NCBI GenBank assembly: GCA_947470805.1
Contig: CANIVU010000028.1
Location: 1-64,000, forward strand
Length of the DNA: 64,000 nucleotides
Direction of reading: 5' to 3'
Source of the DNA: Acidobacteriota bacterium
GTDB taxonomy: Bacteria > Acidobacteriota > Terriglobia > Bryobacterales > Bryobacteraceae
The position numbers and the translations under genes were made by a program. The notes beneath the pieces are model-generated. The model was not told the DNA's origin, made no database searches, and was given only the letters and a program-made list of their open reading frames with translations. Below are positions 3,472 through 64,000 of this stretch, one piece after another. How positions within the stretch are numbered: the first letter of the stretch is position 1; every line of letters begins with the position of its first letter.

Positions 3472-3476
3472 GTTCG

Positions 3477-36004: not shown

Positions 36005-36010
36005 GACGGG

Positions 36011-38011: not shown

Positions 38012-38036
38012 GGGTTGTCCGTGATTATATAAGAGG

Positions 38037-42358: not shown

Positions 42359-42361
42359 CGA

Positions 42362-43618
<1,257 letters not shown>

Positions 43619-43675
43619 TGCTATCTCCCCTCCGCTTGAGAGTGGTCGAGTGGCAGCGGACGGGCCTTCGTAAGC

Positions 43676-43918
43676 CTAAGCCTTTTTAGCGGCCTTGGCG
43701 TCAATATAATCAATCGCGTCTTTGACGGTCTTGATCTTCTCGGAGTCTTCGTCGGGAATGTTGAGGTCGAAGGCTTCTTCGAAGGCCATCACCAATTCCA
43801 CCAGATCGAGCGAGTCTGCGCCCAAGTCATCGACGAAAGCAGCCGTGCCGTCAACCTGGGCTTCATCGACGCCGAGTTGTTCGACGATAATCTGCTTTAC
43901 TTTAGCTTCAACGGACAT
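43676..43918 (-). CDS. acpP: Acyl carrier protein
   Basis: 80 residues. The phosphopantetheine attachment site is Ser in [20 protein letters not shown] (DSL motif, residue ~36). The acidic helix II and the [11 protein letters not shown] ending are typical of AcpP. It carries growing acyl chains for fatty acid synthesis and is the first gene of the acpP-fabF-etfB-etfA unit. AAGGAG lies 14 bases upstream of its ATG, a longer spacing than usual. A candidate promoter sits ~32 bases upstream (43950-43979). Confidence 0.97.
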
Positions 43919-43949
43919 ACCTGTTCAGTTGTCTCCTTCAAACTTCCCT

Positions 43950-43979
43950 ATCCTAGCCATACCTATGCTGCCACCGCAA
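43950..43979 (-). promoter_or_regulatory. Candidate sigma-70-type promoter for acpP
   Basis: Reading the minus strand, TTGCGG is followed 18 bases later by TAGGAT, placed about 30-60 bases upstream of the acpP start. Hexamers match the consensus at most positions. The same short interval (93 bases) must also serve the divergent esterase gene. Confidence 0.4.
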
Positions 43980-44011
43980 CTCTGCACAATAGTAGATGAG
44001 GAAAATCTTTC

Positions 44012-44644
44012 GTGAGAATCATCTATTTGCATGGGTTCGCATCGGGACCGGAATCGCGCAAAGCCCAAGTTTTTCGGGCTCGTTTTGAAGAAGCGGGGGT
44101 TCGGGTGACCGTTCCACACCTGGATGGAGGAAATTTTTTCGGATTGACGATTTCCGGGCAGTATTCGCTGCTGGAGCGGGAGGCGGCGGGTGAACCGGTG
44201 GTGCTGGTGGGGTCGAGCATGGGGGGATATTTGGCGGCTCTGTACGCTTCCCGGCACCCGGAAGTGGAGAAGTTGGTGCTGTTGGCGCCGGCGTTTGGAT
44301 TTCAGGATCGGTGGCCGCACATGCTGGGGCCGGAGAAGTTTCGGGCCTGGGAAGAGACGGGGGAATTGGAGGTATTCCACTACGCTTCGAAGGGGCTGGC
44401 GAAGGTGGGATGGCAGTTGGCTGAGGACGCAAAGAATTGGGACGCGGTGCCGGAGTTTACGCAGCCGGCGTTGATTTTCCATGGTTCGAACGACCCGGTG
44501 GTGCCGGTGGCGAGTTCGGAGGCGTATGCGGCGGGGCATGGGAATGTGGCGTTGGGGGTTTTTGACGCCGGGCATGAGTTGACGGAGGTGATTGACGAAA
44601 TGTGGGAGCGGACTGCCGTTTTCCTTGGGATCGGGAGAGAATAG
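44012..44644 (+). CDS. YqiA/YcfP-like alpha/beta-hydrolase esterase
   Basis: 210 residues from a GTG start. Alpha/beta hydrolase with a short N-terminus: IIYLHGFASGPESRKAQVF (oxyanion His-Gly), nucleophile elbow VLVGSSMGGYLAALYA (GxSxG at residue ~68-72), acidic residue in IFHGSNDPVVPVASS (~165) and His in FDAGHELTEV (~190). This layout matches the small UPF0227/YqiA esterases rather than lipases. Cytoplasmic; substrate unknown. Five bases separate its stop from the heptose-phosphate adenylyltransferase start, so they share a transcript. Confidence 0.85.
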   Translation: MRIIYLHGFASGPESRKAQVFRARFEEAGVRVTVPHLDGGNFFGLTISGQYSLLEREAAGEPVVLVGSSMGGYLAALYASRHPEVEKLVLLAPAFGFQDRWPHMLGPEKFRAWEETGELEVFHYASKGLAKVGWQLAEDAKNWDAVPEFTQPALIFHGSNDPVVPVASSEAYAAGHGNVALGVFDAGHELTEVIDEMWERTAVFLGIGRE

Positions 44645-44649
44645 AGAGA

Positions 44650-45120
44650 ATGCCTGCCGTATATACCCGGCCCGAGTTGGCCGCCGCGCGCGAAGGGTGG
44701 AAGCGCGAAGAAAAAACTGTCGTGTTTACGAACGGTTGTTATGACTTGCTGCATCCAGGACATGTGCGGTTGCTGGAACAGTGCAAGTCGATGGGCGACG
44801 TGCTCATCCTGGCGTTGAATACCGATTCGAGCGTGGCGCGCTACAAGGGGCCGCACCGGCCGCTGTTGTCGCAGGACGAGCGGGCGGCGGCGGCGCTGGC
44901 ATTGGACGCGGTGGACGCGGTGACGTTCTTCGACGAAGATACGCCGACGGAGCTGATTTCCGTGGTTTTGCCGGACATTCTGGTGAAAGGCGCCGATTGG
45001 TCGCACTACGTGGCCGGGCGGGAAGAGGTGGAAGCGGCGGGCGGGAAAGTTGTGCTGATTCCGCTGGAGCCGGGCCATTCGACGACCAACATCGAGAAAG
45101 AGATTCTGGCGCGGAACTAG
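44650..45120 (+). CDS. rfaE2: D-glycero-beta-D-manno-heptose 1-phosphate adenylyltransferase (HldE C-terminal type)
   Basis: 156 residues from ATG 44650, just after the esterase stop. The nucleotidyltransferase signature is VFTNGCYDLLHPGHVRLLEQ (~24-43, with the H-x-x-H of the family), followed by ILALNTDSSVARYKG and DILVKGADWSHYVAG. It matches the single-domain form of HldE that activates heptose 1-phosphate with ATP to ADP-heptose for lipopolysaccharide inner core. The kinase domain is absent and must be encoded elsewhere. Its stop is immediately followed by mfd, so the gene may be translated with it. Confidence 0.9.
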   Translation: MPAVYTRPELAAAREGWKREEKTVVFTNGCYDLLHPGHVRLLEQCKSMGDVLILALNTDSSVARYKGPHRPLLSQDERAAAALALDAVDAVTFFDEDTPTELISVVLPDILVKGADWSHYVAGREEVEAAGGKVVLIPLEPGHSTTNIEKEILARN

Positions 45121-45121
45121 T

Positions 45122-48100
45122 ATGGCGATGACGCACCCGGCCGTTCGCGACCTGTTCCAATCCTTCGCTTCCGGCGATGGGTTGCAGCAGATTGTGCGCG
45201 GGCTGGCGCACAACAAGCACCAGTCGCTATCGGGCCTGACGCTGACGGCGAAGGCGCTCTATTCGGTGCTGTTGTGGAAGGCGACCGGGCGGCCGATCAT
45301 CGTTGTGACCGATGGGGCGAAGGAAGCCGAGTTGCTGTTGGAAGCGGTGCTGACGTTCTTCGACATTCTGACGGGCGGGCAGCATTTGGAGCCGCCGCAG
45401 ATGATTCCGGCGTTGGACGTGCTGCCGTCGCAGGGGCTGTCGCCGCATAGCGAAATCAGCGCGCAGCGGGCGGTGGGGCTGTGGCGGTTGGCGACGCGAC
45501 GGGCCACCATTACGATTACTCCGATCGGCAGCGCGCTGGCGCGGACGTATGCGCCGGCGCAGTATAAGCATCTGGCGCTGGAGTTGCGCGCCACCGAAGA
45601 CATCGCCATGGAGGACCTGGCGGAGCACCTGCGGCGCATCGGTTACGAACAGCGCGAGCCGGTGGAGATGGTGGGCGAGTTTTCGGTGCGCGGGGGGATC
45701 ATCGACATCTTCCCGGCGGAGAGCGCGCAGCCGCTGCGCATTGAGCTTTTCGGCGACACGATTGAGGAGATGCGGCGGTTTGACGTGCAGACGCAGCGGT
45801 CGGTGTTGAAGGTGACGAGTGCGATGGTGCTGCCGCTGGCCGAGCACGCGGTGCCGGCGAATGCGATCACCGGTTGGGAGTTCGTGCGGGTGCTGCAGGA
45901 GCCGCGGGAGAGCACGCTGTTCGACCTGCAGATGGACGCGCTGGTGGTGATGGACGAGCCGGAGCAGATCCGTAGCGCGGCCGAACGGTTTTGGAAACGG
46001 CTGAACGAAAACGTGCGTGAGGAGACGGTGCCGAACGCGGCGGTGTATGCGTCGATGGGGGAGTGGGCGCGGTGGATGGAGACCCGCACGACGCTGAGTT
46101 TGCGGCAGTTGGAGATGATCGGCGAATCGGGCGCGGCGCCGGCGGCGTATATTTCCACCAGGCCTTCGGTGGCCTTCCACGGGGACCTGCAGGCGGCGGT
46201 GGGCGAGACGCGGAACCTGATTGAAAGCGGGCACCGGGTGGTGTACTTTGCCCCGGCGGTGGGCGAGGTGGAGCGGCTGGCCGATATTCTGCACGAGTAT
46301 CAGATTCCGTTCCAGTTGGCGCTCGATCCGGGGGATCATCCGTCGCAGTATTTGGCGGAGCGGGCGCGGGTGTTCGGGGCTTCGGCGAGCACGATGCTTG
46401 CGCGGGGACTGATCCGGCGCGGGACGACGTTCCTCGATGCGAAGGTCACCGTGATCGGCAGCGAGGATCTGTTTGATCCTTCGGATTTGGCGGTATCGCC
46501 GGCGATTAATCACGGCGCGGCGGCGGCGTTCGCGGCCGACATTTCGGACCTGAAACCGGGCGACTACATTGTGCACGTGACGCACGGCGTGGGCAAGTTC
46601 CTGGGGATCAAAGAGCTGGCGCAGGGGGACGACCAGAAGGGCGATTTCCTGTTGCTGGAGTACGCTGGCGAGTCGCGGCTCTACGTGCCGATGACGCGGC
46701 TGGACCTGGTGCAGAAGTACCGCGGGGCGGGCGAGCAGAAGCCATCGGTGGACCGACTGGGCGGGGTGACTTGGAGCAAGACCAAGTCCCGCGTGAAGGC
46801 CAAGATGCGCGACATGGCCGAGGAGCTTTTGAAGCTCTACGCGGCGCGGAAGATGTCGGAAGGCTTTGCCTATTCGCCCGATTCCAACTGGCAACGCGAG
46901 TTCGAAGACGCCTTTGAATACGGAGCGACGAAGGACCAGTTGCAGGCGGTTTCAGAGATTAAGCGCGACATGGAACGGGCGCAGCCGATGGACCGGCTGC
47001 TGTGTGGCGACGTAGGTTTTGGGAAGACCGAAGTGGCGATGCGGGCGGCATTTAAAGCACTCGGGGACGGCAAACAGGTGGCCGTCTTGACGCCGACTAC
47101 GGTGCTTTGCTTCCAGCATTTCGAGTCTTTCAAACGGCGGTTCGCGAGCTTCCCTGTGCGAATTGAAATGCTGAGCCGGTTCCGTTCAGCGGCCGAAACG
47201 AAGCAGGTTTTGGAGGACTTGAAGTTCGGCAAAGTGGACATCGTCATTGGCACACATCGCATTTTGTCGAAGGACATTGAGTACTCCGATTTGGGGCTGC
47301 TGATCGTCGATGAAGAGCAGCGGTTTGGCGTGCGGCACAAGGAGCGGCTGAAGGACGTCCGGAAGAATATCGACGTGTTGACGATGTCGGCCACACCGAT
47401 TCCGCGCACCATGCACATGTCGATGCTGGGGCTGCGGGACCTCTCCGTAATTGAGACGCCGCCGAAGGACCGGCTGGCGGTGCAGACGACGGTGGCGCAC
47501 TTCAACGAAGACATGGTGCGGGCGGCGATTGAGACCGAGGTGCTCCGCGGCGGGCAGGTGTACTTTGTACACAATCGCGTGGAGACAATTTACAACCGGG
47601 CGATGTGGCTGCAGAATGCGATGCCGAATGTGCGCGTGGGCGTAGGGCACGGGCAGTTGCCGGAGGCCGAGTTGGAACGCGTGCTACTGGGCTTCATGAA
47701 GCGCGAGTACGACGTGTTTGTTTGCACGACGATCGTGGAGAACGGGTTGGACATTCCGCTGGCGAACACGATCATCATCGAGAACGCCGAGCGGCACGGA
47801 TTGTCGGAGTTGTACCAACTGCGCGGGCGTGTGGGGCGTTCGAACCGGCGGGCATATGCGTATCTGCTGGTACCGCCGAATGCGGATTTGTCCGACGTGG
47901 CGCGGAAGCGACTGGCGGCGTTGCGCGAGTTCAGCGACTTGGGCGCGGGGTTCAAAATTGCGGCGCTGGATTTAGAGTTGCGCGGGTGCGGGAACCTGTT
48001 GGGCGGGGAGCAGCACGGGCACATTGAGAGCGTCGGGTTCGACACATATTTGAAGCTGCTCGACGATATGGTGCGAGAGTTGAAGGGCGAAGACGTGCCA

Positions 48101-48616
48101 CCGGAGATTCATTCGACGATCACGCTGGGCGTGGATATTCGCATTCCGAATACGTATATTGGCGAGGAGCATCAGCGGCTGCGCGCGTATAAAAAACTGG
48201 CGGGCGTGGAGAACGTGAGCGAGCAGCAGAGGGTGATCGATGAACTGACCGATCGCTACGGGCCGGTGCCGGAGATGGTGCGGCATCTGGCGGAATTTTC
48301 GCTGTTGCGAGCGATTGCGCAGCGGTTGGGGATTGAGTCGATCGACCGGCGGCAAGGATTTTTCAACATTAAAATTCACCCGGAAGCGCGCATCAGTCCG
48401 GAGAACCTGATGGCGCTGGTGGCGGGCACGCAGGGGTGCCAATTTACGCCGGCGGGCGTGCTGCGATTGCCTGCCGACCCGTGGCCAGTCACCAATCCGA
48501 ACGCCATGTTGCGGCACTTGCAGGAGTGTCTGCGGCAACTGGATCCGGGCCCGATTGCGCCATCCGGGATACAGCGTCTTCCGGGGGCCACACCGGCAAC
48601 ACGCGTAACCCTTTGA
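45122..48616 (+). CDS. mfd: Transcription-repair coupling factor
   Basis: 1164 residues, full length for Mfd. The UvrB-homologous N-terminal module is followed by the RNA-polymerase-interacting domain (PGDYIVHVTHGVGKFLGIKE, ~478-497). The helicase core has Walker A GDVGFGKTEVAMRAA (~635), DEEQRFG, the TRG-like TMSATPIPRTMHMSML and IVENGLDIPLANTIIIENAE, LRGRVGRSNRRAYAYLL. A TRCF C-terminal domain follows. Mfd removes stalled RNA polymerase and recruits UvrA. It begins one base after the preceding gene. No sign of truncation. Confidence 0.97.
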   Translation: MAMTHPAVRDLFQSFASGDGLQQIVRGLAHNKHQSLSGLTLTAKALYSVLLWKATGRPIIVVTDGAKEAELLLEAVLTFFDILTGGQHLEPPQMIPALDVLPSQGLSPHSEISAQRAVGLWRLATRRATITITPIGSALARTYAPAQYKHLALELRATEDIAMEDLAEHLRRIGYEQREPVEMVGEFSVRGGIIDIFPAESAQPLRIELFGDTIEEMRRFDVQTQRSVLKVTSAMVLPLAEHAVPANAITGWEFVRVLQEPRESTLFDLQMDALVVMDEPEQIRSAAERFWKRLNENVREETVPNAAVYASMGEWARWMETRTTLSLRQLEMIGESGAAPAAYISTRPSVAFHGDLQAAVGETRNLIESGHRVVYFAPAVGEVERLADILHEYQIPFQLALDPGDHPSQYLAERARVFGASASTMLARGLIRRGTTFLDAKVTVIGSEDLFDPSDLAVSPAINHGAAAAFAADISDLKPGDYIVHVTHGVGKFLGIKELAQGDDQKGDFLLLEYAGESRLYVPMTRLDLVQKYRGAGEQKPSVDRLGGVTWSKTKSRVKAKMRDMAEELLKLYAARKMSEGFAYSPDSNWQREFEDAFEYGATKDQLQAVSEIKRDMERAQPMDRLLCGDVGFGKTEVAMRAAFKALGDGKQVAVLTPTTVLCFQHFESFKRRFASFPVRIEMLSRFRSAAETKQVLEDLKFGKVDIVIGTHRILSKDIEYSDLGLLIVDEEQRFGVRHKERLKDVRKNIDVLTMSATPIPRTMHMSMLGLRDLSVIETPPKDRLAVQTTVAHFNEDMVRAAIETEVLRGGQVYFVHNRVETIYNRAMWLQNAMPNVRVGVGHGQLPEAELERVLLGFMKREYDVFVCTTIVENGLDIPLANTIIIENAERHGLSELYQLRGRVGRSNRRAYAYLLVPPNADLSDVARKRLAALREFSDLGAGFKIAALDLELRGCGNLLGGEQHGHIESVGFDTYLKLLDDMVRELKGEDVPPEIHSTITLGVDIRIPNTYIGEEHQRLRAYKKLAGVENVSEQQRVIDELTDRYGPVPEMVRHLAEFSLLRAIAQRLGIESIDRRQGFFNIKIHPEARISPENLMALVAGTQGCQFTPAGVLRLPADPWPVTNPNAMLRHLQECLRQLDPGPIAPSGIQRLPGATPATRVTL

Positions 48617-48663
48617 TTCCCGGTTTTGGCCAGGGGCTTGCAAAGGGTAATATAGGAGAAGAT

Positions 48664-49803
48664 ATGTCGCATCGCGTCCTTTTGCTCTGTGTTGCCGCCG
48701 GCACCCTGTTGACCGCCGCCGATCCCATCGTCATTGAACAGATCGTGGCGAAGGTGAATGGCGAGATTATCACTCGTTCGGAACTTCTGCGATTGAAGAA
48801 GAACATGATGGACGAGATGAAACAGCGGGGGGCGAACCCGGCGGAGATCGAAGCCGCGTTGAAGGAACGGGAGAAAGATTTTCTGCGCGAGAAGATCGAC
48901 TCGATGTTGCTGGCACAGAAGGGCCGCGACCTGAGCATCAATCTGGACTCGGAAGTCACCAAGTACATCGCCAATTTGCAGCGGCAATCGAAGCTTGTCG
49001 ACGCCGACAAGTTCCAGGCCTACATCAAAGAAAACACCGGCATGACGTACGAGGATTACCGGGCCGAAATCAAGAACAGCATGTTGACGCGGCGGGTGAT
49101 CGGGCAGGAAGTGAGCTCGAAGATCGTCATTCCGAAAACGGAAGTCCGCAAGTATTACGACGAGCACAAGGAAGAGTTTCAGCGCGAAGAACGTATTTTC
49201 CTGCGCGAGATCTTCCTGTCCATCGACGGCAAGTCAGACGCCGAGAAAGCGGCTGTGGAGAAGAAGGCGAAAGACCTGGTGGCACGGGCGCGCAAGGGTG
49301 AGAAGTTTAACGACCTGGCCCGCGACAACTCTGACGCCGATTCGGCCAAGAACGAAGGCGAACTGCCGCCGTCGAAGAAGGGCGAGTTGCGCAAAGAGTT
49401 GGAAGACAAGGTGTGGGCGGCGAAGCGGAACGACGTATTGGACCCGGTGCAGTTCCCGAACGGTTGGCTGATTTTGAAGGTGGAAGAACAGCATCAGGCT
49501 GGTTTGGCGGCGTTTGAAGAAGTGGAAGGCGAAGTGATGAACAAGCTGTTCGAACCTCGCATGCAGCCGGCGGTGCGCGAATACTTGACCAAATTGCGCG
49601 GTGACGCGTTCCTGGAAATCCGCGAGGGATATGTGGACAGCGCGGCGGCGGCGGGGAAATCGACAAAGTGGAGCGACCCGGCGCAGTTGAAGCCGGAGAC
49701 CGTGACGCGCGCCGAAGTGGCCAGCCAGAAACGCCGGAAGCGGTTGCTGTTCGTTCCGGTGCCTGGCACCTCCACGGGCAACATCTCCACTTCGAAGTCC
49801 TAG
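48664..49803 (+). CDS. SurA-like periplasmic chaperone / PpiC-type peptidyl-prolyl isomerase
   Basis: 379 residues from ATG 48664, with a strong TAGGAGAAG ribosome site. Signal peptide MSHRVLLLCVAAGTLLTA, then IVIEQIVAKVNGEIITRSEL, the SurA N-terminal start. Helical N-domain ~20-175; a parvulin domain at ~180-275 (RIFLREIFLSIDGKSDAEKA, KGEKFNDLARDNSDADSAKN, PVQFPNGWLILKVEEQ). It assists folding of outer-membrane proteins in the periplasm. Longer in-frame upstream codons overlap mfd's 3' end and were ignored. The next gene starts 29 bases later. Confidence 0.9.
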   Translation: MSHRVLLLCVAAGTLLTAADPIVIEQIVAKVNGEIITRSELLRLKKNMMDEMKQRGANPAEIEAALKEREKDFLREKIDSMLLAQKGRDLSINLDSEVTKYIANLQRQSKLVDADKFQAYIKENTGMTYEDYRAEIKNSMLTRRVIGQEVSSKIVIPKTEVRKYYDEHKEEFQREERIFLREIFLSIDGKSDAEKAAVEKKAKDLVARARKGEKFNDLARDNSDADSAKNEGELPPSKKGELRKELEDKVWAAKRNDVLDPVQFPNGWLILKVEEQHQAGLAAFEEVEGEVMNKLFEPRMQPAVREYLTKLRGDAFLEIREGYVDSAAAAGKSTKWSDPAQLKPETVTRAEVASQKRRKRLLFVPVPGTSTGNISTSKS

Positions 49804-49832
49804 CCTGCTAACCTGAAATCCGATCCCATCGG

Positions 49833-50909
49833 ATGAAAATATTCGCGAACGCACTCGAACCCAACCAGCAGGTCCAGACCACCTTCCTGGTTTTGAACAA
49901 AGATGTCCGTCAGAAAAAGACGGGCGAACCGTATCTGTCGCTGGTCCTTGGCGACAAGACCGGCGACATCGACGCCAAGATGTGGGATGGGGTGGCCGAC
50001 ATTGTCGACACCTTTGAACGCAACGACTACGTCAAGATCCGCGGTCAGGCGACGGTCTACCAGAACAAGCTGCAGTTGCGCGTAGACCGGCTGCAGCGCG
50101 CCGATGAACGGGAGATTGAACCGGCGGACTACTTCCCCGCTTCCAAGCGCGATCGCGACGAGATGTATGCCGAATTGATGGGCTACATCGAGACGATGCG
50201 GAATCCGCATTTGAAGGCGCTGCTCGAGTCATTTTTCGCCGATCCGGAGATTGCGCGCCGGTACAAGACGGCCCCGGCGGCGAAGTCGATCCACCATGCG
50301 TGGATTGGCGGGTTGATTGAACATGTGCTTTCGTTGATGACGCTGGCGCGGTTCACGGCGCGGCATTATCCGGAGGTGGATGAGGACTTGTTGTTGACCG
50401 GCGTGGTGCTGCACGATATCGGCAAGATTTATGAACTGACCTATGACCGGGGCTTTGGCTATTCGGACGAAGGGCAGTTGATCGGGCATATCGTGATTGC
50501 GCTGCGGATGATTGACGAGAAGGCGCGGCAGATTCCCGGGTTCCCGCCGAAGATGAAGCTGCTGGTTGAGCACCTGGTGGCGAGCCATCACGGGGAGTTG
50601 GAATACGGGTCGCCGAAGGTGCCGTGTTTCCTGGAGGCGATGCTGTTGCACCATCTGGACAATCTGGATTCGAAGATGGAGACGGTGCGAACGATTGTGG
50701 CGCGCGATGCGATGTTGGAGGGGAACTTCACGGGATACGCGCCGTCGCTCGAGCGGAGCCTGTTGAAGAAAGACCGGTTCCTGGCGGAGGAGCAAGTTGT
50801 CCCGCCGGCACCGAAGCCGGCGCCGGCGAAGACGGGCAAGTCCGGGGTGCCGACGACCGGTTCGCTTTTCGGGGATAAACTGATCTCCGCCTTGGGCGAC
50901 GAGAAGTAG
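49833..50909 (+). CDS. YhaM-like 3'-5' exonuclease (OB-fold + HD domain)
   Basis: 358 residues. An OB-fold nucleic-acid-binding domain (~15-95: QVQTTFLVLNKDVRQKKTGE, DYVKIRGQATVYQNKLQLRV) precedes an HD domain (~150-290) with HHAWIGGLIEHVLSLMTL, the HD pair in GVVLHDIGKIYEL and LVASHHGELEYG. This is the Bacillus YhaM exoribonuclease/DNase family. It removes nucleotides from the 3' end with a metal. The last ~40 residues are a Pro/Ala/Lys-rich tail. Five bases separate it from the BlaI-type regulator. Confidence 0.88.
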   Translation: MKIFANALEPNQQVQTTFLVLNKDVRQKKTGEPYLSLVLGDKTGDIDAKMWDGVADIVDTFERNDYVKIRGQATVYQNKLQLRVDRLQRADEREIEPADYFPASKRDRDEMYAELMGYIETMRNPHLKALLESFFADPEIARRYKTAPAAKSIHHAWIGGLIEHVLSLMTLARFTARHYPEVDEDLLLTGVVLHDIGKIYELTYDRGFGYSDEGQLIGHIVIALRMIDEKARQIPGFPPKMKLLVEHLVASHHGELEYGSPKVPCFLEAMLLHHLDNLDSKMETVRTIVARDAMLEGNFTGYAPSLERSLLKKDRFLAEEQVVPPAPKPAPAKTGKSGVPTTGSLFGDKLISALGDEK

Positions 50910-50913
50910 AACC

Positions 50914-51300
50914 ATGGCACGACGCGCAGGTTCATCTCCGCTTCCCCCGCCGCTGGAGATGGCCTGCCTGGGCGTGCTTTGGACACACGGAGAGGGCACC
51001 GTGCGGGACGTGGCGGCGGCGCTGGCCCCGCGGCATTCGTTTGCGTACACGACCGTAATGACGCTGCTGGAACGGCTAGTACGCCGGGGGCATCTGAGAC
51101 GACGGAAGACGGGGCGTAGCTTTGTTTACACGCCGGCACAGGACCCGGAGGAGTTGCGGGCGGTGGCCATGGAGGAGTTCGTGCGGAGTTACTTTGGCGG
51201 ATCACGGGATGATTTAAGGCGGTGGTTGGATGGGTCAACAAGAAAAGAAGCCTTAGAGCCGACTGGGTCAAATGACCCAATTGACACGGCACTCCTTTAA
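50914..51300 (+). CDS. BlaI/MecI-type winged-helix repressor
   Basis: 128 residues. The winged helix spans ~10-80: PPLEMACLGVLWTHGEGTVR, the recognition helix region FAYTTVMTLLERLVRRGHLR and RSFVYTPAQDPEE. It matches the BlaI/MecI/CopY family that represses genes until an M56 sensor protease (BlaR) cleaves it. No BlaR-like gene is adjacent, unlike typical acidobacterial pairs, so its regulator and target are unknown. Cotranscribed after the YhaM-like gene. The tail past residue 105 is Ser/Thr/Asn-rich and poorly conserved-looking. Confidence 0.85.
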   Translation: MARRAGSSPLPPPLEMACLGVLWTHGEGTVRDVAAALAPRHSFAYTTVMTLLERLVRRGHLRRRKTGRSFVYTPAQDPEELRAVAMEEFVRSYFGGSRDDLRRWLDGSTRKEALEPTGSNDPIDTALL

Positions 51301-51403
51301 ACCGGACCCGCGCATCTCCTTTTGTTTGTTACAGATCCGTTTTTTCATAGATCGAACTTCCAAAACCTATATATTAACTCCATTAAAATCAAGCAGATAG
51401 CGC

Positions 51404-51432
51404 TTGCAGTGCATACCCCCCGTGCATAGAAT
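51404..51432 (+). promoter_or_regulatory. Sigma-70-type promoter upstream of the first TonB-receptor-like gene
   Basis: TTGCAG (51404-51409) and TAGAAT (51427-51432) are separated by 17 bases, the ideal spacing, 27 bases before the ATG at 51459. A gtgcata sequence occurs twice (51409-51415, 51422-51428) and gtgcac once more at 51437-51442, overlapping the promoter, so a repressor or activator site is possible. The surrounding 51301-51458 gap is AT-rich compared with the rest of the window. Confidence 0.55.
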
Positions 51433-51458
51433 AAAGGTGCACAGGTGTCTCTTACCCT

Positions 51459-54400
51459 ATGAGAAAACTGAATCTACTTACTATCCTTACCGCGATGCTG
51501 GCCGTTACGGCCGCTGCGCAAACCATTACCGGTGCGTTCACTGGAACGCTCTCCGACCAATCCGGCGCTGTAGTTCCGAACGCCAAAGTGACGGCAACCA
51601 ATACCGGCACGAACGTGACGTACTCCGCGCAGAGCAATGACTCGGGCGTCTACAACTTGCTTTTCCTGCCTGTCGGCAACTACAGCATGACGGCGGAAGT
51701 GAAGGGCTTCAAGAAGTCCAACACGGGCCCGTTCGGGCTGCAAGTGAATCAGACCGCGCGCGTCGACTTCAAGTTGGAAGTCGGCGAAACCAGCCAGTCG
51801 GTCGAAGTGACGACGGCGGCGCCGGTGCTACAGACCGAGTCGACACAGACCGGTGAATCGCTGCAATCCAAGCAGTTGACCGAATTGCCGCTCAAGGGCC
51901 GCAATTTTGTGTCGCTCACGCTGCTCATCCCGGGCGCTGTTTCGCCCCAGCCCGACGCGATGGCGAGCCGCTTCGGCGCGCGTCCGTACGTCAACGGCAA
52001 CCGCGAACAGACCAACAACTTCATGCTTGACGGCGTGGACGTGAACGACTCGATCGACAACCGCGTGGGCTATTCGCCGAACGTGGACGCGCTCGAGGAA
52101 GTGAAAGTCCTGACCGGCAACGCTGCGGCCGACTACGGCAACTCCGGCGGCGCGACGGTCATGATGTCCATCAAGAGCGGCACCAACCAGTTCCACGGGA
52201 ACGTGTTTGAGTTCCTGCAGAACAAGGTGCTCAACGCCAATGGATACTTCCGGAACCGCACCGTTTCCACCGCCACCCGCGCTGGTTTCAAGCGCAATAT
52301 TTTCGGCGGCACGCTGGGCGGCCCCATCGTCAAGAACAAGCTGTTCTTCTTCGTTGACTATGAAGGCACCCTGCAGCGCAACGATGGTCCGGCGACGGCC
52401 AGCGTTGCCCCGCAGTCCTGGCGCAATGGCGACCTGAGCCAGTTCCCGAACGCCTCGATCGTCGATCCGACCAACGGCCAGCCGTTCGCCGGCAAGCAGA
52501 TCCCGGTTTCGCGGTTCAGCCCGGTGGCCCGCTACCTGTTCTCGAACCCCTCGCTCTATCCGCTGCCGACGCAGGCTGGCACCGGTCCGCTCGGCATCGC
52601 CGGCAACTACGCCTCTTCCACCGCTTCGCAGACCAACAACCACCAGGCTGACGCCAAGGTCGACTTCCGTCCGACCGACAAAGACGCCTTTATGGCTCGC
52701 TGGTCCATCGGCCGGTATGAGTCGCTCGGTTCGCGCGCTGCCCTGCCGGTCTTCATGACCAGCGGTCAGTCCGGCCCGACGACCTCGTGGGTTGGCAACT
52801 GGAACCGCACGGTTTCCAACGCCATCGTCAACGAAGCCCGCTTCTCGTTCTCCCGCATCCAGATCGACGATCTCGTCCTCGACTGGTCCGGTCAGCTCGG
52901 CGCCGATGGTAACTCCAAGTTCGGCATCCCCGGTGGCCAGCCCATCGCTGGGTTGAGCAGCGTTGGCCTCGGTTCCGGCCTCTCCGGTATCGGCTCCGGC
53001 GCCTCGATCTCGAACACGGTCGACAAAAAGTACATCATCTACGACAACCTCACCTGGCAGAAGGGAAAGCACCTCCTGAAGATGGGGACCCAGTTGATGA
53101 AGTACAACCAGGACCGCTACTATGCTGGCAACAACGGCGCGCTCGGCTTGTTCCGCTACACCGGCACCTACACCGGTCTCGACTTCGCCGACTTCCTCAC
53201 CGACTCGCTCAACGGCAAAGGCCGTGGCGCGGTCGCCGATCCCTGGGGCCACCGCTTCTGGCGCTCCGCCCTCTTCATTCAGGACGACTTCAAAGTTGCC
53301 CGCAACTTCACGCTCAACATCGGCATGCGCTGGGAATACATGCAGCCGATCTATGAGAAGGACAACCGCCAGATCAACCTGAACACCTTTACCGGTGCCC
53401 TCATCAAGACCGGCGGCGCTTACGGGAACGCACTCTACAATCCCTACAAGAAGCAGTTCATGCCGCGCATCGGCTTCGCCTGGACGCCCGAACAGTTCAA
53501 AAACAAGCTGGTCGTCCGTGGCGGTTACGCCTATCAGAGCTTCATGGAAGGCACCGGCGCCAACCTTCGTCTGCCTCTGAACCCGCCCTTCTTCGTCGAA
53601 ACCGACTTCACGTATGATCCCCGCACACCGGGCTCCATCCGCACCGGCTTCTCCGACGTCGTTACTTCGAACATCTCGTTCGACATGGCCCGCCCCGCCG
53701 TTGCCGGCACCACGCCGCAGTTGCAGGGTCGCGCTTGGGACCTGAACCTCCGGCCCCAGACCACCGGCCAGATCAACTTCACAACCGAATATCAGTTCGA
53801 CAACTCCACCTCCATCCAGGCTGGCTACGTCGGACAGAAGGGCACCCACCTGGTCGCCCCGGTTGAAGCGAATCAGCCCCTCCCCGGCGTTGGTCCGTTC
53901 GCCTCCTGGACGAACATCAATCTCCGCCGCCCGCTCATCAATGTCCTGCCGAACGTTGGCAACATCGCCCGCACCGAATCGTCCGCCACCATGGACTACC
54001 ACTCGCTGCAGGTTGTTGGCCGCCGCAAGTTCGCTGCCGGCTTTGACTTCCTGGCCGCATACACCCTTGGCAAGACGATCACCGACAACCTGGGCTACTA
54101 CGGCTCCGGTCTGACCTCCGGTGAAGGCGCCTACTGGCAGAACGCTTACGACCGCAAGGCCAACCGTGGCCCGGCGTTCTTCGACGTTCGCTCCAACTTC
54201 ACCATCGCCGGTTCCTGGTTCGTCCCGGTCGGCAAGGGCAAGAAGTTCGGCTCCGGCATGAGCAAGGCTGCTGACCTCATCGCCGGTGGCTGGAACGTCA
54301 ACTACTCCGTGGCTGCCCGCACTGGCTTGCCGATCACCGTTCGCGCCAATGACCTCACCGGTCAGGCCGTTCGCGGTAACGTCCGTGCGAACCGCTACCG

Positions 54401-54791
54401 CACGCTCACCGTCAATCAGAGCGGTGTCAATGTCGACAACTGGTTCGGTCTCCCGACCGATTCGGCCGCTCGTGGCGCCGTCTTCTGCGCCGCGGGCGTC
54501 GACAACGGCTCCTGCGCCTACGGTCAGCCCGGCAACGGCACTTTCGGCAACTCTGGCATCGGCACCGAACGTGGCCCCGGCTACTTCAGCTCCGACATGT
54601 CCATCGGCAAGCGCTTCAGCGTTTCCGAGAGGAACTACCTGGACTTCCGCATGGAACTCTTCAACGCGTTCAACAACGTGTCGTGGGCTCCTCCGGGCGC
54701 CAACGTTGGTTCGCCGGCCACCTTCGGTGTCATCGGCAGCCAGGTCCAGGCTCCGCGCAACATCCAGTTCGGTCTGAAGTACTTCTTCTAG
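51459..54791 (+). CDS. TonB-dependent-receptor-like outer membrane protein with carboxypeptidase-regulatory plug extension
   Basis: 1110 residues. Signal peptide at 1-20. Carboxypeptidase-regulatory-like domain at ~21-110 (GAFTGTLSDQSGAVVPNAKV, YSMTAEVKGFKKSNTGPFGL). Plug-like region ~120-260 (VEVTTAAPVLQTESTQTGES, NFMLDGVDVNDSI, GGATVMMSIKSGTNQFHGNV). The rest is long barrel-like strands ending NIQFGLKYFF with the terminal aromatic typical of outer-membrane beta-barrels. Acidobacteriota carry many such OmpA/TonB-like proteins, presumed to take up or bind large substrates. Strikingly C-ending codon use suggests high expression. A strong hairpin terminator follows directly. Confidence 0.93.
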   Translation: MRKLNLLTILTAMLAVTAAAQTITGAFTGTLSDQSGAVVPNAKVTATNTGTNVTYSAQSNDSGVYNLLFLPVGNYSMTAEVKGFKKSNTGPFGLQVNQTARVDFKLEVGETSQSVEVTTAAPVLQTESTQTGESLQSKQLTELPLKGRNFVSLTLLIPGAVSPQPDAMASRFGARPYVNGNREQTNNFMLDGVDVNDSIDNRVGYSPNVDALEEVKVLTGNAAADYGNSGGATVMMSIKSGTNQFHGNVFEFLQNKVLNANGYFRNRTVSTATRAGFKRNIFGGTLGGPIVKNKLFFFVDYEGTLQRNDGPATASVAPQSWRNGDLSQFPNASIVDPTNGQPFAGKQIPVSRFSPVARYLFSNPSLYPLPTQAGTGPLGIAGNYASSTASQTNNHQADAKVDFRPTDKDAFMARWSIGRYESLGSRAALPVFMTSGQSGPTTSWVGNWNRTVSNAIVNEARFSFSRIQIDDLVLDWSGQLGADGNSKFGIPGGQPIAGLSSVGLGSGLSGIGSGASISNTVDKKYIIYDNLTWQKGKHLLKMGTQLMKYNQDRYYAGNNGALGLFRYTGTYTGLDFADFLTDSLNGKGRGAVADPWGHRFWRSALFIQDDFKVARNFTLNIGMRWEYMQPIYEKDNRQINLNTFTGALIKTGGAYGNALYNPYKKQFMPRIGFAWTPEQFKNKLVVRGGYAYQSFMEGTGANLRLPLNPPFFVETDFTYDPRTPGSIRTGFSDVVTSNISFDMARPAVAGTTPQLQGRAWDLNLRPQTTGQINFTTEYQFDNSTSIQAGYVGQKGTHLVAPVEANQPLPGVGPFASWTNINLRRPLINVLPNVGNIARTESSATMDYHSLQVVGRRKFAAGFDFLAAYTLGKTITDNLGYYGSGLTSGEGAYWQNAYDRKANRGPAFFDVRSNFTIAGSWFVPVGKGKKFGSGMSKAADLIAGGWNVNYSVAARTGLPITVRANDLTGQAVRGNVRANRYRTLTVNQSGVNVDNWFGLPTDSAARGAVFCAAGVDNGSCAYGQPGNGTFGNSGIGTERGPGYFSSDMSIGKRFSVSERNYLDFRMELFNAFNNVSWAPPGANVGSPATFGVIGSQVQAPRNIQFGLKYFF

Positions 54792-54813
54792 ACTGCACGG
54801 GAACGTACAATGG

Positions 54814-54841
54814 AAAGGGCAGGCCAACCGGCCTGCCCTTT
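54814..54841 (+). terminator. Rho-independent terminator after the first TonB-receptor-like gene
   Basis: Arms aaagggcaggcc (54814-54825) and ggcctgcccttt (54830-54841) pair perfectly over 12 bases with an aacc loop, followed by tccttttgg. The stop codon is 22 bases upstream. The next start codon (54856) is only 14 bases beyond the stem, so this hairpin also forms the leader of the haem-binding gene. Confidence 0.85.
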
Positions 54842-54855
54842 TCCTTTTGGTGCCC

Positions 54856-55314
54856 ATGAAAAAGAAACTTCTCCTCGCGATTCCGGTTGTCGCCGTCGCC
54901 ATTCAGCTCATCCCCGCCCCCGCCAAAACAAATCCCCCGATTGACCCGGCACGTACCTTCGCCACGGTCATGAAGCCGCCGCCCGATGTCCAGGCGGTCT
55001 TGCAACGCGCCTGCGCCGATTGCCACTCCAACGAAACCAAGTGGCCCTGGTACGCCGATATCGCCCCCATCTCATGGCCGGTCCGGAAACACGTCGTCGA
55101 TGGCCGCAAGCATCTGAATCTTTCGGAGTGGCTGAAGCCGGGCGAGACGAAATTTTCCGACTGGAGCCAGTTGGAAGATATTGGCAAGGCGGTGCTGGAT
55201 AAGTCGATGCCGCTCTACGGGTACGACTGGATGCATGCCGAGGCCAAGCTCACCGCAGTCGAACGGGAGGCGATCGCCAAGTGGGCAGATTCGGCGATTG
55301 GCGGACCGAAGTAG
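54856..55314 (+). CDS. Exported haem-binding domain protein (CxxCH)
   Basis: 152 residues from ATG 54856. Signal peptide MKKKLLLAIPVVAVAIQLIP. A CxxCH motif is in RACADCHSNETKWPWYADIA (~53-72), followed by ISWPVRKHVVDGRKHLNLSE. This is the haem-binding domain family (PF14376 type): one c-type haem and conserved WPWY. Such proteins are periplasmic or membrane-anchored and of unknown role. It lies just past the terminator of the previous gene, so it may depend on read-through or on an unseen promoter. Stands alone: 55315-55479 holds no gene I can support. Confidence 0.85.
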   Translation: MKKKLLLAIPVVAVAIQLIPAPAKTNPPIDPARTFATVMKPPPDVQAVLQRACADCHSNETKWPWYADIAPISWPVRKHVVDGRKHLNLSEWLKPGETKFSDWSQLEDIGKAVLDKSMPLYGYDWMHAEAKLTAVEREAIAKWADSAIGGPK

Positions 55315-55479
55315 GCAGGCGGTGCCGCACGAGTTCGAATTCGGAGCGCATTTGCGGCCGGACCCAATACTGCGGAGATGGTCCGAAGTAGCGGGAATGC
55401 CGTATCCGGGGTGATCGCTCGCCAGCCCCGGACAATCTGGCTTAGCCGATTGACCGGCACCACCACGCCGCGCGCCCGT

Positions 55480-56322
55480 TCACCCGCAGTGCATCACATA
55501 CTCACTCACCCGGAACTGGGTCACCTTCCCAGCCGGCGTCAGGGTCAACAACGATAGCCCCTCATTCTCAAACGTGCTCGAATCCAGCAGTAGAACCGGA
55601 TAGGCGAACCCCGGCAAAGCAAACATCTGAACCACCCGGTATAGGCCGGAATCGGCCAGACCGAAACCTGGAATCGCACACCCATCACAATGCTCGCCGG
55701 TGTCGATTCCGCGGTGCACTTCATGGGTCACAATCTCGCCGTCGGCTCGATGCAAAACAATCGCTTCTTCGCGCAGCAGCTTCGTCTTCGCGTCATAGAG
55801 CCGGTGCCGCGAGTAGAAGAGCGAATCCGCCCGGACGCCGAACGCGTTGTCGCGCCGCAATTCCCCCTTCTCCGGCCACCCCAGCAGCCGGTTGACCTTT
55901 GCCAACTGGGCGTTATCCATTCCAATCATCACCAGCCCACGCCGTACCTCGCCGGCCATCCTTCGGGAAAGGTAGAGCGCCCGCCGGGGCCGTGTTTCCC
56001 CATCCACGCGATAGACGCCCAGCGAATCGGAATCCGTCAACTGGCATGCAATTCCATACTCCGCACGTCGCCCCCAGGCGCGACCCTTCACGCTGCCCGA
56101 GCGGCGAGCCACCGCCCCCGTCCCCAATGGGCCCAAAACCATAAGCTCCGAGGCCCCGCTCTCACGCGCAAGAAACCCATACTCCGGCGCAAACCACCCC
56201 ATCCGCGGCAGTTCCCCCAACTGCCTTTCAAAAATGGATTCGACATACCCATCCGTGGATCGCTCCGGCATCTGGCCGAAACAGCCCGCCGCCGCAACAG
56301 CCACTATCCATCCAAATCTCAC
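55480..56322 (-). CDS. Exported protein of unknown function
   Basis: 280 residues from GTG 56322. Signal peptide MRFGWIVAVAAAGCFGQ, with AAGC possibly a lipobox. The mature part has MPERSTDGYVESIFERQLGE, GYRVDGE-like turns around GVYRVDGETRPRRALY, and a cysteine pair in GEHCDGCAIPGFG. Several predicted beta strands are visible (VTHEVHRGID, YPVLLLDSSTFENEGL). No known family recognised. The start overlaps the HAD gene stop by four bases (GTGA), so both belong to one unit, with HAD first. Confidence 0.7.
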   Translation of the reverse strand: MRFGWIVAVAAAGCFGQMPERSTDGYVESIFERQLGELPRMGWFAPEYGFLARESGASELMVLGPLGTGAVARRSGSVKGRAWGRRAEYGIACQLTDSDSLGVYRVDGETRPRRALYLSRRMAGEVRRGLVMIGMDNAQLAKVNRLLGWPEKGELRRDNAFGVRADSLFYSRHRLYDAKTKLLREEAIVLHRADGEIVTHEVHRGIDTGEHCDGCAIPGFGLADSGLYRVVQMFALPGFAYPVLLLDSSTFENEGLSLLTLTPAGKVTQFRVSEYVMHCG

Positions 56323-56930
56323 ACCGACACACCCCGCGCTCGCAGATCACCTAGCAACTTCTCGTACCCCAGAAACTGCTCCGCCTGGATACCCGCTTGT
56401 CGCGCGCCTTCGACATAGGCCAGGATGTCATCGGTGAAGAAGCACTCCTCGGGCCGGGCCTGCGCGTGAGCGAGCGCCGCTGCGTAGATGGCCGGCTCCG
56501 GCTTCATCGCCTTCACATCGTGGGAGAGGACGAGGTGATCGAACTCATGCAGAATCGGATAGGTCTCGCTCACCATGTCGATGTGGATGGCGTTGGTATT
56601 GGAGAGAACCAGCATTCGGTGACTCTTTTTCAACTCGCGGACAAGGTCGATGGGAATCAGCGTATCGGGCAGGAAAATGGAACTCCAGACCTCACGGAAC
56701 CCTTCATAGCTCAACGACGCGCCCAGTAACCCGTTGATCCGCTCTACGAAATCGCGCGGCTCAATCCGGCCGCTCTCCAATTCCGGCACCCACCCGGTCT
56801 CGCGAATTCGCTCAGGAATCTCGGCTGCGGGCACGGCGGTATGCTGCGCCATCGCCGCGTAGCCGCGCCGGAAATCGAACGGGATGATGACGTTTCCCAG
56901 ATCGAAAATGATCGTCTTCAGTTCACTCAT
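56319..56930 (-). CDS. HAD superfamily hydrolase
   Basis: 203 residues from ATG 56930. Motif I is FDLGNVIIPFDF (residues ~9-20), with Asn in place of the usual second Asp (D-x-D becomes DLGN), as in the HAD-IA YihX/phosphatase-like group. Motif II is LVLSNTNAIH (~112), motif III Lys is in HDVKAMKPEP and motif IV is FFTDDILAYVEGA. This is a small soluble phosphatase-like enzyme, probably a sugar-phosphate phosphatase. Longer upstream reading (to 57173) lacks the motif-I-at-start layout and was ignored. Co-transcribed with the exported protein at 55480-56322. Confidence 0.88.
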   Translation of the reverse strand: MSELKTIIFDLGNVIIPFDFRRGYAAMAQHTAVPAAEIPERIRETGWVPELESGRIEPRDFVERINGLLGASLSYEGFREVWSSIFLPDTLIPIDLVRELKKSHRMLVLSNTNAIHIDMVSETYPILHEFDHLVLSHDVKAMKPEPAIYAAALAHAQARPEECFFTDDILAYVEGARQAGIQAEQFLGYEKLLGDLRARGVSV

Positions 56931-57024
56931 GGCAGACTCCCATCCTACCAGCGCGTGCGGCTTCTCCACCCACCGCAGGGCCGTGTAAAATAGCAGACAA
57001 CTCAGTAGGGAAGATGTGTCGTAA

Positions 57025-60000
57025 ATGGGTATTCGATTGCAGCATGGCGCAGCCATGCTTTTTCTCGTCGCGTCCGTGTCGTCATTGGCACAGGAAACGC
57101 GCTCTATGTTATTCGGCCGGGTCCTGGACCCGCAGGGGGCCGCGATTGTCGGCGCCGATGTCACCATCCCCAATGCCGAAACGGGCGTTGCGCTCCGCTA
57201 TAAGACGAACCCCACCGGCTACTACGAAGGCAACCTCCTGATGCCTGGAAGCTACGAGGTCATGGCAGAGGTCAAGGGCTTCAAGCAGTTAGTACGGAAA
57301 GGCATCACGCTGCCGGTATCATCCCGCATTCAAATCGACATGCCGTTGGAAGTCGGCAGCGTAACGGAAACGATTTCAGTCAAGGCTGAAGCGCCGCTTC
57401 TGGAAACGAACGCCGTCAGTTCCGGCCGCGTCATTGACAACAAGTCGCTGATGGAGCTACCCGTCATGGGCAACATCGCCATCCTGCTGGTCAAACTGGC
57501 GCCTGGCATTCAGACCGGTGGAGTGAATAACTATCTCGCGCTGCACTCAAACGCCGGCGGCTCCGATTACAACGTCGGCGGTAACATCGGCGGTAACTCG
57601 TGGACTCTCGATGGCTCGCCTAATCAGGGCCCTGGCCGCCGCACCGCCTATCTGCCATACACATACGCCGTCGCCGAGTTCAAGGTCGAAACAAATAACT
57701 TCGATGCCGGCCTCGGCCAGGCTTCCGGCGCGGGGATTTCGATGATCTCCAAATCCGGCTCCAACGAGTTCCACGGCACGGCCACCTGGCAGCACTGGCA
57801 GCAGCGCTGGCAGGGGACGCCGTTCTTCGTCAAGCAGAGCTATTTCCGTCGTATCGCCGCCGCCGATGCCGCCGGCAACACCGCGCTCGCCAATCAAATT
57901 CGCAACACCGATAAACAGGCCACCGGGCGCTCGAATAACTGGGGGCCTCTGGCGGCGGCCCGGTTGTCATTCCGAAAATCTACGACGGCCGAAACCGGCT
58001 CTTCTGGTTCTTCACATACAATGCGTTTAAAGATGTAAAGACGGAAGATGCCTCCACATTCAACCGCACCGTGCCCACGCTGAAGGCGCGACAGGGCGAC
58101 TTCAGCGACATGCTGTCGATCGCCAATAACGGCCCGCGCTACGCGATCTACGACCCCACGACGATCATTCGAGATCCGGCTCGGCCGATCCCCGGCAACA
58201 TCATTCCGCGCAGCCGTTTTGCCAACCCGGCCTACGACGCCATCACGAAGCTCTACCCCAACCCCAACAACCCGATTGCACCAAACGCCGACCCGGTGAA
58301 CAACTACCTGGCCTCCCAGACGCCCTATAACTGGGACTACAAAGCTTATTCCAACCGGGTCGACTATCAGATCTCCGACAAGTGGCGCATGTTCGGCCGA
58401 TGGTCGTTCAACGATTTCGGGCCCGAGGATCGCGGCGATTGGACCTATGAATCCGCGCGTGGCCTGAATCTCGGTGGCCTTGTCCGGAACAATAAGGGTG
58501 GCAATATCGACGTGGTCTATACGCAGAACGCCACAACTCTGTGGAACTTCAACGTCGCCATGAATCAGTTCCGTGAAGGCAACATTCAACCCAAGGCGCT
58601 GGAGTATAAACCGAGCGACATCGGTCTACCTTCGTACATGGACCAGAAGGCCAGTGCGCTTTCTCTTTTGCCGCAAATGGCCGTGGCCGGGTACACCACA
58701 ATCAGCCCCGGTGGCTACTCCACCTGGACCCGCACCCGCAGCCTGACTGCGAAACTCGAAGGCACGTTTATTCGCGGCAACCACTCCATCCGCGCCGCCT
58801 TCGACATTCGCAACCAGTTCCGTACCGGCGGCGGCGGCGGCAACACCAGCGGCAACTTCTCTTTCAACCAGAACTATATGCGCCGGAACGACGATGGCTT
58901 CACGCCGGCCAGTGACCTCGGCCTTGGCTGGGCCGCGTTCATTCTGGGTCTGCCCTCCGGCGCCAGCGTTGCCACGAACGATACCTACGCCATTCACAAT
59001 CCCTACTACGCGACCTTCGTGCAGGACTCCTGGCGCGTCACCAGCAAGCTGACGCTGAACCTGGGACTTCGCCAGGAATATGAGCGCGGCGCCACGGAAC
59101 GTTACAACCGCATGATGGGCAACTTCGACGCCAACGCCAGCATTCCCCTCGCCCCCAGCGCACAGGCCGCCTACGCGAAGAACCCGATCCCCGAACTGCC
59201 TGCCAGCCAGTTCGTGGTGAAGGGCGGCAACACCTACACGGGCGTCGGCGGCAATCCCCGTCAGCTCTATAAGAACGAGCTGATGTGGCTGCCTCGTATT
59301 GGCGCCGCGTATCAGGGCAATTCGAAGACCGTCATTCGCGGCGGCTACGGCATCTTCTACGACACGATCAACGTGCTGAACTTCGGCCCGGACCAGACGG
59401 GCTTCTCCCGCTCCACCAGCTCCGTTATCTCCAACGATTTCGGTCAGACGTGGAACTTCCCGGCCAACGCCAGCCCGGCCAACTTCAAGAGCCCGCTGGT
59501 GGATCCGTTCCCGGTCCGCGCCGATGGCAGCCGCTTTGACATACCCACCGGCAGCGCTTTGGGCGCCATGAACCGCGTCGGCCGCGGCTTCGGCTACACG
59601 GCGTTCGATCAACCACATGCGCGCCAGCAGCGCTGGCAAGTGGGGCTGCAGCGCCAGTTCGGCTCGTCGATGGTGGTCAGCGCCGCTTACGCCGGTGCCT
59701 ATTCGGATCGCATCTCTCTCGGCCGGAATATGAGCGCGCTTCCCGAACAGTACTGGGCCAACGGCACGGTGCGCAACGACGCCGTTGCGAACAACCTGAA
59801 TGCCAACGTGGCGAACCCCTTCTTCATCGGTAATCTGAACCGTGCCGACTTCCCCGCCCTCGTCTGGGCCGACATGAATACGAACGGCTTCTTCACCTCG
59901 CCCACCATTCGCCGCTCGCAGCTGCTCCGCCCCTTCTCCCACATGAACGGGCTGACCAACAATACCGAGTACAGTTCCTACACCAAGTCCCACGAGTTCC

Positions 60001-60668
60001 AAACTTCGTTTGAAAAGCGCTTCGCCAAGGGCTGGAACCTGAACCTGGGCTACACCCGTATGAACCTCCGCGAAGCCGATTTCTACTTTAACGAGTTCGA
60101 CACCACGCGCACCGAAAGGGCCTCCAACGATGGCCGGCCGCACCGGTTCACGGCCACCGGCGTCTTCGAAATGCCCTTCGGCAAAGGCAAGAAATTCCTC
60201 TCTGGCGCCAACCGAGCGGTGGACCTGATCGCCGGTGGCTGGCAGGTCGCGGCCACCTACGAATTCCAGCCCGGCCCGCTGGTCGACTGGGGCAATCTCT
60301 TCTACTACGGCAACGATGTGAACAGCGTTGCCAACGTCAGCCGCAGCTGGGATAGCTGGTTCAATACCGCCAACTTCGAGCGTACCGCCGCCCGCGGCCC
60401 GAACTCCTTCCACCGCCGCGTCTTCCCCACCCGCATCGACGGCATTCGCGCCGACTCCACCAACCAGTGGAACGCCAACATGTCCAAAAACATCCCCTTC
60501 ACCGAACGGGTGAAGATGCAACTGCGCATCAACGCGCTCAACCTGCAGAACCGATCGCAGATGGCCGCCCCGGTGACCGATCCCTTCAATACCAACTTCG
60601 GACGCATCACCAGCCAAACGGCGGCCACCAACCGGTGGATCGAGGCGCAGGCCCGCATCACCTTCTAG
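57025..60668 (+). CDS. Second TonB-receptor-like outer membrane protein, frameshifted in a G run
   Basis: As written the chain from 57025 ends at 58038, with signal peptide, regulatory domain (SMLFGRVLDPQGAAIVGADV) and plug region (GGNSWTLDGSPNQGPG, GAGISMISKSGSNEFHGTAT). The rest is in another frame from about 57945 to 60668. Adding one G to the GGGGG at 57941-57945 restores NNWGASGGGPVVIPKIYDGR and NRLFWFFTYNAFKDVKTEDA into the barrel, for about 1,213 residues. The C-terminus ends EAQARITF with a final aromatic. Same family and architecture as the gene at 51459, with diverged sequence. A single homopolymer indel in an otherwise intact gene suggests a consensus error, though a real mutation is possible. 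Confidence 0.85.
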
Positions 60669-60676
60669 CCGTGAGT

Positions 60677-60708
60677 GTGGAAGTAGGCCCCACCGGGCCT
60701 ACTTCCAC
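60677..60708. terminator. 14-bp hairpin between convergent genes
   Basis: Arms gtggaagtaggccc (60677-60690) and gggcctacttccac (60695-60708) pair perfectly with a cacc loop. It follows the TonB-receptor-like stop by 8 bases. Its right arm includes the stop codon of the convergent VOC gene (60699-60701), so it can serve both directions. Confidence 0.75.
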
Positions 60709-61028: not shown

Positions 61029-61050
61029 TCCGGCAAAATAGCACAAACAG

Positions 61051-61668: not shown

Positions 61669-61693
61669 AGCGCCTCCTGCTACCTCAGATGCG

Positions 61694-63120: not shown

Positions 63121-63125
63121 GAAAA

Positions 63126-63165
63126 AGCCCTCCAGCCATACGGTACACCCGCTGGCCGGAGGGCT
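63126..63165 (-). terminator. Terminator for tpiA that carries the next gene's ribosome site
   Basis: On the minus strand, AGCCCTCCGGCCA (63165-63153) pairs with TGGCTGGAGGGCT (63138-63126), with one mismatch and a ~14-base loop. It is followed by TTTTTC, a standard intrinsic terminator. The GGAGGG in the second arm is also the Shine-Dalgarno sequence of the GTG at 63120, so the ribosome site of the downstream gene lies inside the stem. Confidence 0.7.
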
Positions 63166-63181
63166 CAATCCCTAGCGAAAA

Positions 63182-63931: not shown

Positions 63932-64000
63932 AATTCGTGTAAGAAACTCGTTCCTTTCGTAATCACGGCGCCGAAATTTTCGGCTACCGTCTGTCCGATG

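Follow-up and report, generated by a model that had tools for sequence, protein, structure and literature searches.

For locating the origin and terminus of a bacterial chromosome, GC-skew maps are the standard tool. Replication is generally assumed to begin at a single oriC, with G+T as the usual signature of the leading strand. Mammalian replication N-domains, to which our data bear a close likeness, lie on a megabase scale. Putative fixed origins stand at the flanks of each domain and random termination between them yields an N-shaped skew, with a higher density of evolutionary breakpoints close to these origins (PMC2722678). Among bacteria, one report describes multi-origin, DnaA-independent replication with irregular skew in cyanobacteria, including Synechocystis PCC 6803 and Nostoc PCC 7120 (PMC7198777). 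The excerpted text of the Solibacter genome paper cites cumulative GC skew just for the lack of large atypical regions (PMC3174227). In the titles and opening abstracts of the open-access papers searched we found nothing on alternating or sawtooth skew in Acidobacteria or other bacteria, nothing on 'Sulfopaludibacter' with GC skew and nothing on Acidobacteria with multiple origins.

The locus described here, and the genome around it, share with N-domains sharp C-to-G turning points of the cumulative skew, hereafter "ups", graded G-to-C turning points, hereafter "downs", and synteny breakpoints at four of the six putative origins tested. They differ in being bacterial and GC-rich, with domains of tens of kilobases, a fourfold-site GC skew of 0.6-0.68 and no gene co-orientation, and in being known from composition. 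With the multi-origin cyanobacteria of PMC7198777 they share a bacterial chromosome without a regular two-point skew, multiple origins having been reported there; here, in contrast, the alternation is strong, sharply bounded and near-regular, and dnaA adjoins a DnaA-box-bearing gap at an up.

The window is the stretch of 64,000 bp G000:C28:1-64000, where G000 is the genome under study (8,706,545 bases, 220 contigs, 3.1% contamination) and C28 a contig of 79,377 bases. Its cumulative GC skew peaks at 51,267, where a one-change model gains 432 log-likelihood units and plus-strand skew passes from about +0.2 to -0.15, being positive from position 1 to about 51 kb and then negative to the end of the contig. 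The sequence-only reading had proposed that the plus strand is G-richer up to about 51 kb and C-richer beyond whatever the gene orientation, and both halves of this proposal were borne out by third-position skew in genes called with a purpose-written gene finder. Left of 51.3 kb, plus-strand third-position skew is mostly positive on both gene strands (+0.64 in the minus gene 3477-5819, +0.75 in the plus gene 9046-10977), and right of it mostly negative, again on both. Expressed on the gene's own coding strand, it runs over most of the left part from about +0.4 to +0.75 in plus genes and from about -0.4 to -0.85 in minus genes, a pattern reversed right of the switch, with some low-skew genes on either side. 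Since third-position skew tracks the strand and not the gene, the strand-composition switch is confirmed. The adjoining gap is also as unusually AT-rich as had been noticed, its AT content being matched by 0.23% of 3,961 158-bp windows of the contig. An Rfam search of the window gave 0 matches.

Table 1. Features of the window around the strand-composition switch (positions are those of the window).
Feature	Position	Strand	Basis
G-rich strand-composition domain, extending past the left contig end	1..51267	+	2-kb windows mostly at a skew of +0.1 to +0.47; third-position skew
Graded transition zone	41000..57000	.	plus-strand third-position skew from about +0.5 through +0.3/+0.2 to values between 0 and -0.36; limits set by eye
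Mfd (transcription-repair coupling factor), within the block, collinear in relatives, that extends across the turning point	45122..48616	+	Pfam TRCF, CarD_TRCF_RID, UvrB_inter
G-to-C turning point (down), best estimate 51,267	51228..51293	.	change-point model, 2-unit interval
C-rich strand-composition domain, continuing to the contig end at 79,377	51268..64000	+	2-kb windows at a skew of about -0.1 to -0.27
AT-rich gap flanked by the genes for a BlaI-type repressor and an Oar-like outer-membrane protein	51301..51458	.	56.3% AT; Pfam
Oar-like TonB-dependent outer-membrane protein, nearest gene on the right of the turning point	51459..54791	+	PF25183, PF13620, PF07715

A plus-strand G-to-C change adjoining an AT-rich gap is what the locus has in common with an Xer/dif chromosome terminus, and a dif-like sequence had been suggested at about 51356-51383. 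As a dif candidate, 51356..51383 (+) was rejected: it has 10 of 28 identities to the B. subtilis dif, taken from PMC3025954, and the best match within the gap (15 of 28) is equalled in 41% of gap shuffles. We scanned 41 genomes for a degenerate dif core with at most three mismatches, using the reversed pattern as control. At least one site was present in 38 of them, and the sole site of G000, with one mismatch, lies at C63:25127-25145, on a contig other than the window's; the reversed control gave none in G000 and some in other genomes. Because the dif-like site is thus predicted elsewhere, the chromosome-terminus reading of the window is refuted. Nor does cumulative skew single out this position as one extremum, the window's being one of 18 downs in 1.57 Mb, with 17 others in the portion read, 18% of the genome. 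What stands of the terminus proposal is the G-to-C direction, as for converging forks, and its independence of gene orientation. A lone skew switch in a fragmentary genome cannot be taken as a terminus. In the congener G017, a dif-like site (C1:345385, locus L079) lies just left of a down bracketed at 349-372 kb.

The DNA of G000 read for cumulative skew comprised 1,569,633 bp on 14 contigs: mostly the longest, to which were added that of dnaA, that of the window and a few picked arbitrarily; C8, C50 and C2 were read short of their ends. It contains 36 turning points, 18 ups and 18 downs, that of the window included. The count stayed the same as the threshold was varied from 250 to 700 net bases, and became 22 and 22 at 150 and 16 and 16 at 1000. 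Several turning points were set by hand between two estimates, before the motif, width and gene-distance tests (for example C6 14500, C8 58000, C10 65400 and 121000, C36 26500, C2 84500 and C3 39000). The average domain is about 35 kb long (11-61 kb). For the 1,197 genes with a length of 300 bp or more, the correlation of plus-strand third-position skew is 0.90 with the flanking domain and -0.13 with gene strand. At fourfold sites of G-rich domains, G makes up 0.71-0.74 and C 0.14-0.16, with the mirror image in C-rich domains; the corresponding GC skew is +0.64 and +0.68 in the former and -0.60 and -0.67 in the latter, on either gene strand. T versus A at these sites tracks the gene and not the domain, the domain asymmetry being nearly pure G versus C. 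Judged from composition, such a G/C balance at near-equal A and T would require strand-asymmetric transversions, C to G or the complement. Intergenic skew has the same sign as the domain and is weaker (+0.165 and -0.153). Genes show no co-orientation with what would be the leading strand: 46.9% of 911 are on the G-rich strand. Of the seven scorable tRNAs, four are on that strand.

Ups and downs differ in shape. The median transition width is 4.75 kb at ups and 10.4 kb at downs (18 versus 18, Mann-Whitney P=2e-4), 3-kb smoothing having enlarged both. Of 171 genes lying 2-9 kb from an up, 137 are at plateau, compared with 83 of 175 at that distance from a down (P=2e-10). Genes with the sign of the opposite plateau are essentially absent near either kind of turning point, and those adjoining downs have intermediate skew values, not a mixture of opposite plateaus. 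The window's down has a mean skew of 0.28 at 2-9 kb away, the other downs ranging from 0.10 to 0.57. Sharp downs occur as exceptions at C36:58961 and on C8 near 71 kb. The seven complete up-up intervals measure 50.6, 54.4, 61.5, 69.0, 76.1, 79.3 and 87.6 kb (CV 0.20), and none of 5,000 random placements had a minimum interval as large or a CV as small. Lowering the threshold to 150, the smallest used, gives ten intervals, including two of about 21-22 kb, and a CV of 0.39.

One up coincides with dnaA-dnaN-gyrB (C36, 21.4-26.6 kb). DnaA boxes lie immediately upstream of dnaA, where there is a gap of 1,464 bp (G000:C36:26559-28022), and in the dnaA-dnaN gap; the former region is likely oriC. The G-rich domain to the right of this up ends about 32 kb away. 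The remaining ups lie within or between ordinary genes, and the cluster at oriC is the single DnaA-box cluster in the 1.57 Mb: with 18 ups checked, neither such a cluster nor an unusually AT-rich stretch was found at any other. When 5-kb pieces were compared all against all by blastn and k-mers were tested for enrichment, the ups shared nothing beyond scattered short matches and a borderline 8-mer, TGTGCAAA, which occurs at seven of 18 ups where about 0.5 are expected (P of roughly 0.01 once corrected by hand). Spaced dyads at the 14 better-localised ups were no better than in random sets. Ten proteins encoded at eight ups included no common family and no replication or transposition protein.

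Synteny with congeners was compared at six of the 18 ups and two of the 18 downs, chosen as sharp or convenient. Four of these ups are breakpoints, one at a resolution of about 30 bp (C7:13100), one within about 100 bp (C3:12515) and two within about 0.4-0.55 kb (C2:50707 and C4:116683), and neither of the downs is. Collinear blocks shared with G014 end about every 5 kb, from which we estimate by hand a chance of roughly 1-2% that four of six would fall within 0.55 kb. The ups C5:52904 and C5:132347 lie in DNA that is collinear in relatives, as do the downs at C6:49311 (versus G014) and in the window, the latter within a gene order common to several other assemblies.

Polarity is not fixed within such collinear DNA. 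Collinearity between C28 and the congener G003 holds from about 5 to 79 kb, yet at 20-51 kb G003 is C-rich and C28 G-rich. At 3,359 comparable fourfold sites of this interval (same amino acid and first two bases in both genomes), G in G000 faces C in G003 at 1,204 and the reverse holds at 85; the two counts for 51-79 kb, a stretch C-rich in both genomes, are 319 and 266. Opposite third-position G/C in collinear DNA implies that polarity has moved without inversion. Around the window's junction, the zero crossing is kept in G004 and shifted in one direction or the other in G010, G014, G007 and G002, with gene order unchanged. Similar alternation is present in G017, with six ups and six downs in 493,760 bases examined of a 713,760-bp contig, at lower amplitude. 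In G028, a one-contig genome from another family of the order, skew is near zero in 20 of 20 evenly spaced stretches and weak in three other stretches. Among named loci of at least 12 kb (60 of 80), some are strongly skewed and most are near zero, which suggests that strong skew is a patchy trait. A few family members, L172 (Bryobacterales bacterium F-183, AP025252.1, a closed genome of 6.18 Mb), L205, L225 and L219, are strongly and uniformly skewed where most are near zero at the same locus; in L172 the skew is -0.23 over 23 kb. L195 is also among the strongly skewed named loci.

Switches like that of the window thus recur in G000 and in at least one relative, as if copying began at many sites. 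We propose, with a probability of roughly 45% on the basis of composition, that the alternating domains record which way replication forks usually travel after leaving many recurrent initiation sites. Forks would leave narrowly placed sites, the ups, about 51-88 kb apart and including oriC by dnaA, and would meet in broader zones between them, the downs; the window would contain one of these zones, with its centre at 51.27 kb. Also in favour of this reading are the near-regular spacing of ups, the dnaA locus at an up, the G017 dif-like site beside a down and the change of polarity in collinear G003. Sharp outward polarity with graded zones between is what fixed initiation and scattered termination are expected to produce, and for this reason we rank fork direction first, ahead of genome rearrangement and, third, of a mutation process centred on breaks. 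The alternation, its independence of gene direction, the contrast of sharp ups with graded downs, the near-regular spacing and the differing polarity of congeners at unchanged gene order are read directly from sequence; that polarity is fork direction and that most ups are initiation sites is inferred. Their want of DnaA-box clusters, AT-rich stretches and a common motif, together with the breakpoints at four of six, favours DnaA-independent initiation over copies of oriC; recombination-dependent restart at recurrent break sites may be an example. The fork reading is weakened by the same absence of origin features and by the absent gene co-orientation. Against it, too, count the near-pure G versus C asymmetry, which departs from the usual G+T signature, the breakpoints at tested ups, which rearrangement would also produce, and the occurrence of some sharp downs. 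Extrapolated from 18 ups in 18% of the genome, about 100 initiation sites would be present if ups are initiation sites, and we know of no precedent for this in a bacterium. We advance only tentatively the broader proposition that a genus of Bryobacterales might initiate replication, independently of DnaA, at recurrent sites numbering of the order of 100 and spaced some 50-90 kb apart, as eukaryote-like replicons marked by a near-saturated G/C sawtooth that shifts between species at constant gene order. Alternating polarity on a scale of about 70 kb with fourfold skew above 0.6 would denote either a bacterium with many initiation sites or strong strand-asymmetric mutation decoupled from the replichore.

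The strongest competitor, which we consider unlikely yet well ahead of the others, is that one origin and a very strong replication skew have been overlaid by frequent inversions and translocations, so that switches are junctions of segments with different histories. The breakpoints at ups, two of them placed to within about 100 bp, are what this account predicts; sharp downs fit it, and so does the weak conservation of skew sign between homologous blocks of G000 and G017 (r=0.34, 50 blocks). An inversion should, however, create an up and a down of equal sharpness, whereas the ups are sharper and the downs are filled with intermediate genes instead of a patchwork of both plateaus. Random breakpoints would also not be spaced as regularly as the ups, and the account is at odds with the collinear ups on C5, with the collinear downs (that of the window in several congeners) and with the collinear change of polarity in G003.

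An improbable alternative is strand-asymmetric damage or repair at recurrent double-strand breaks, for example by long resection of one strand to either side of a hot spot, with no origin function: mutation of the exposed strand would leave opposite G/C bias on the two sides. It would bring the sharp switches of polarity, the graded decay and the rearrangement breakpoints under one cause, and it suits the almost pure C-G asymmetry at fourfold sites, but it demands recurrent resection over tens of kilobases on an evolutionary scale, and oriC is an up as well.

We give little credence to chimeric metagenome assembly, in which contigs of opposite orientation would have been joined. The fragmentation and contamination of G000 and the exact synteny breaks at some ups are compatible with it, but G017, a separate assembly, alternates within one contig, the gene order at the window's switch recurs in several other assemblies, and joins cannot yield the graded downs with which ups must alternate. 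Least credible of all is an origin of the switch in the codon usage of highly expressed genes, the fallback of the sequence-only reading, or in the direction of transcription: in the outer-membrane gene 51459-54791, fourfold codons end less often in G and more often in C than in leftward genes (compared in G000, G004, G007, G008, G010, G014 and G017), so that this gene steepens the local step, but genes of both strands follow the domain and, on the whole contig, the change point remains at 51,267 (interval 51,225-51,306) without the two Oar-like outer-membrane genes, which makes codon usage an insufficient cause. As a codon-usage step by itself, that gene was rejected on the same ground, the change point being unmoved by its removal.

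Several other features of the window were observed. Two low-skew islands lie within the G-rich domain, one with two CarboxypepD_reg proteins (20798-22436) and one with a ketoacyl synthase and a small gene (42362-43918); these are perhaps newer arrivals or codon-constrained genes. The strongest G skew among the called genes of the window (+0.45 overall) belongs to a leucine-rich-repeat protein (9043-10977). Paralogous gene pairs are found at 2110-5819 and 34598-38359, each with a PSCyt2/PSD1 protein.
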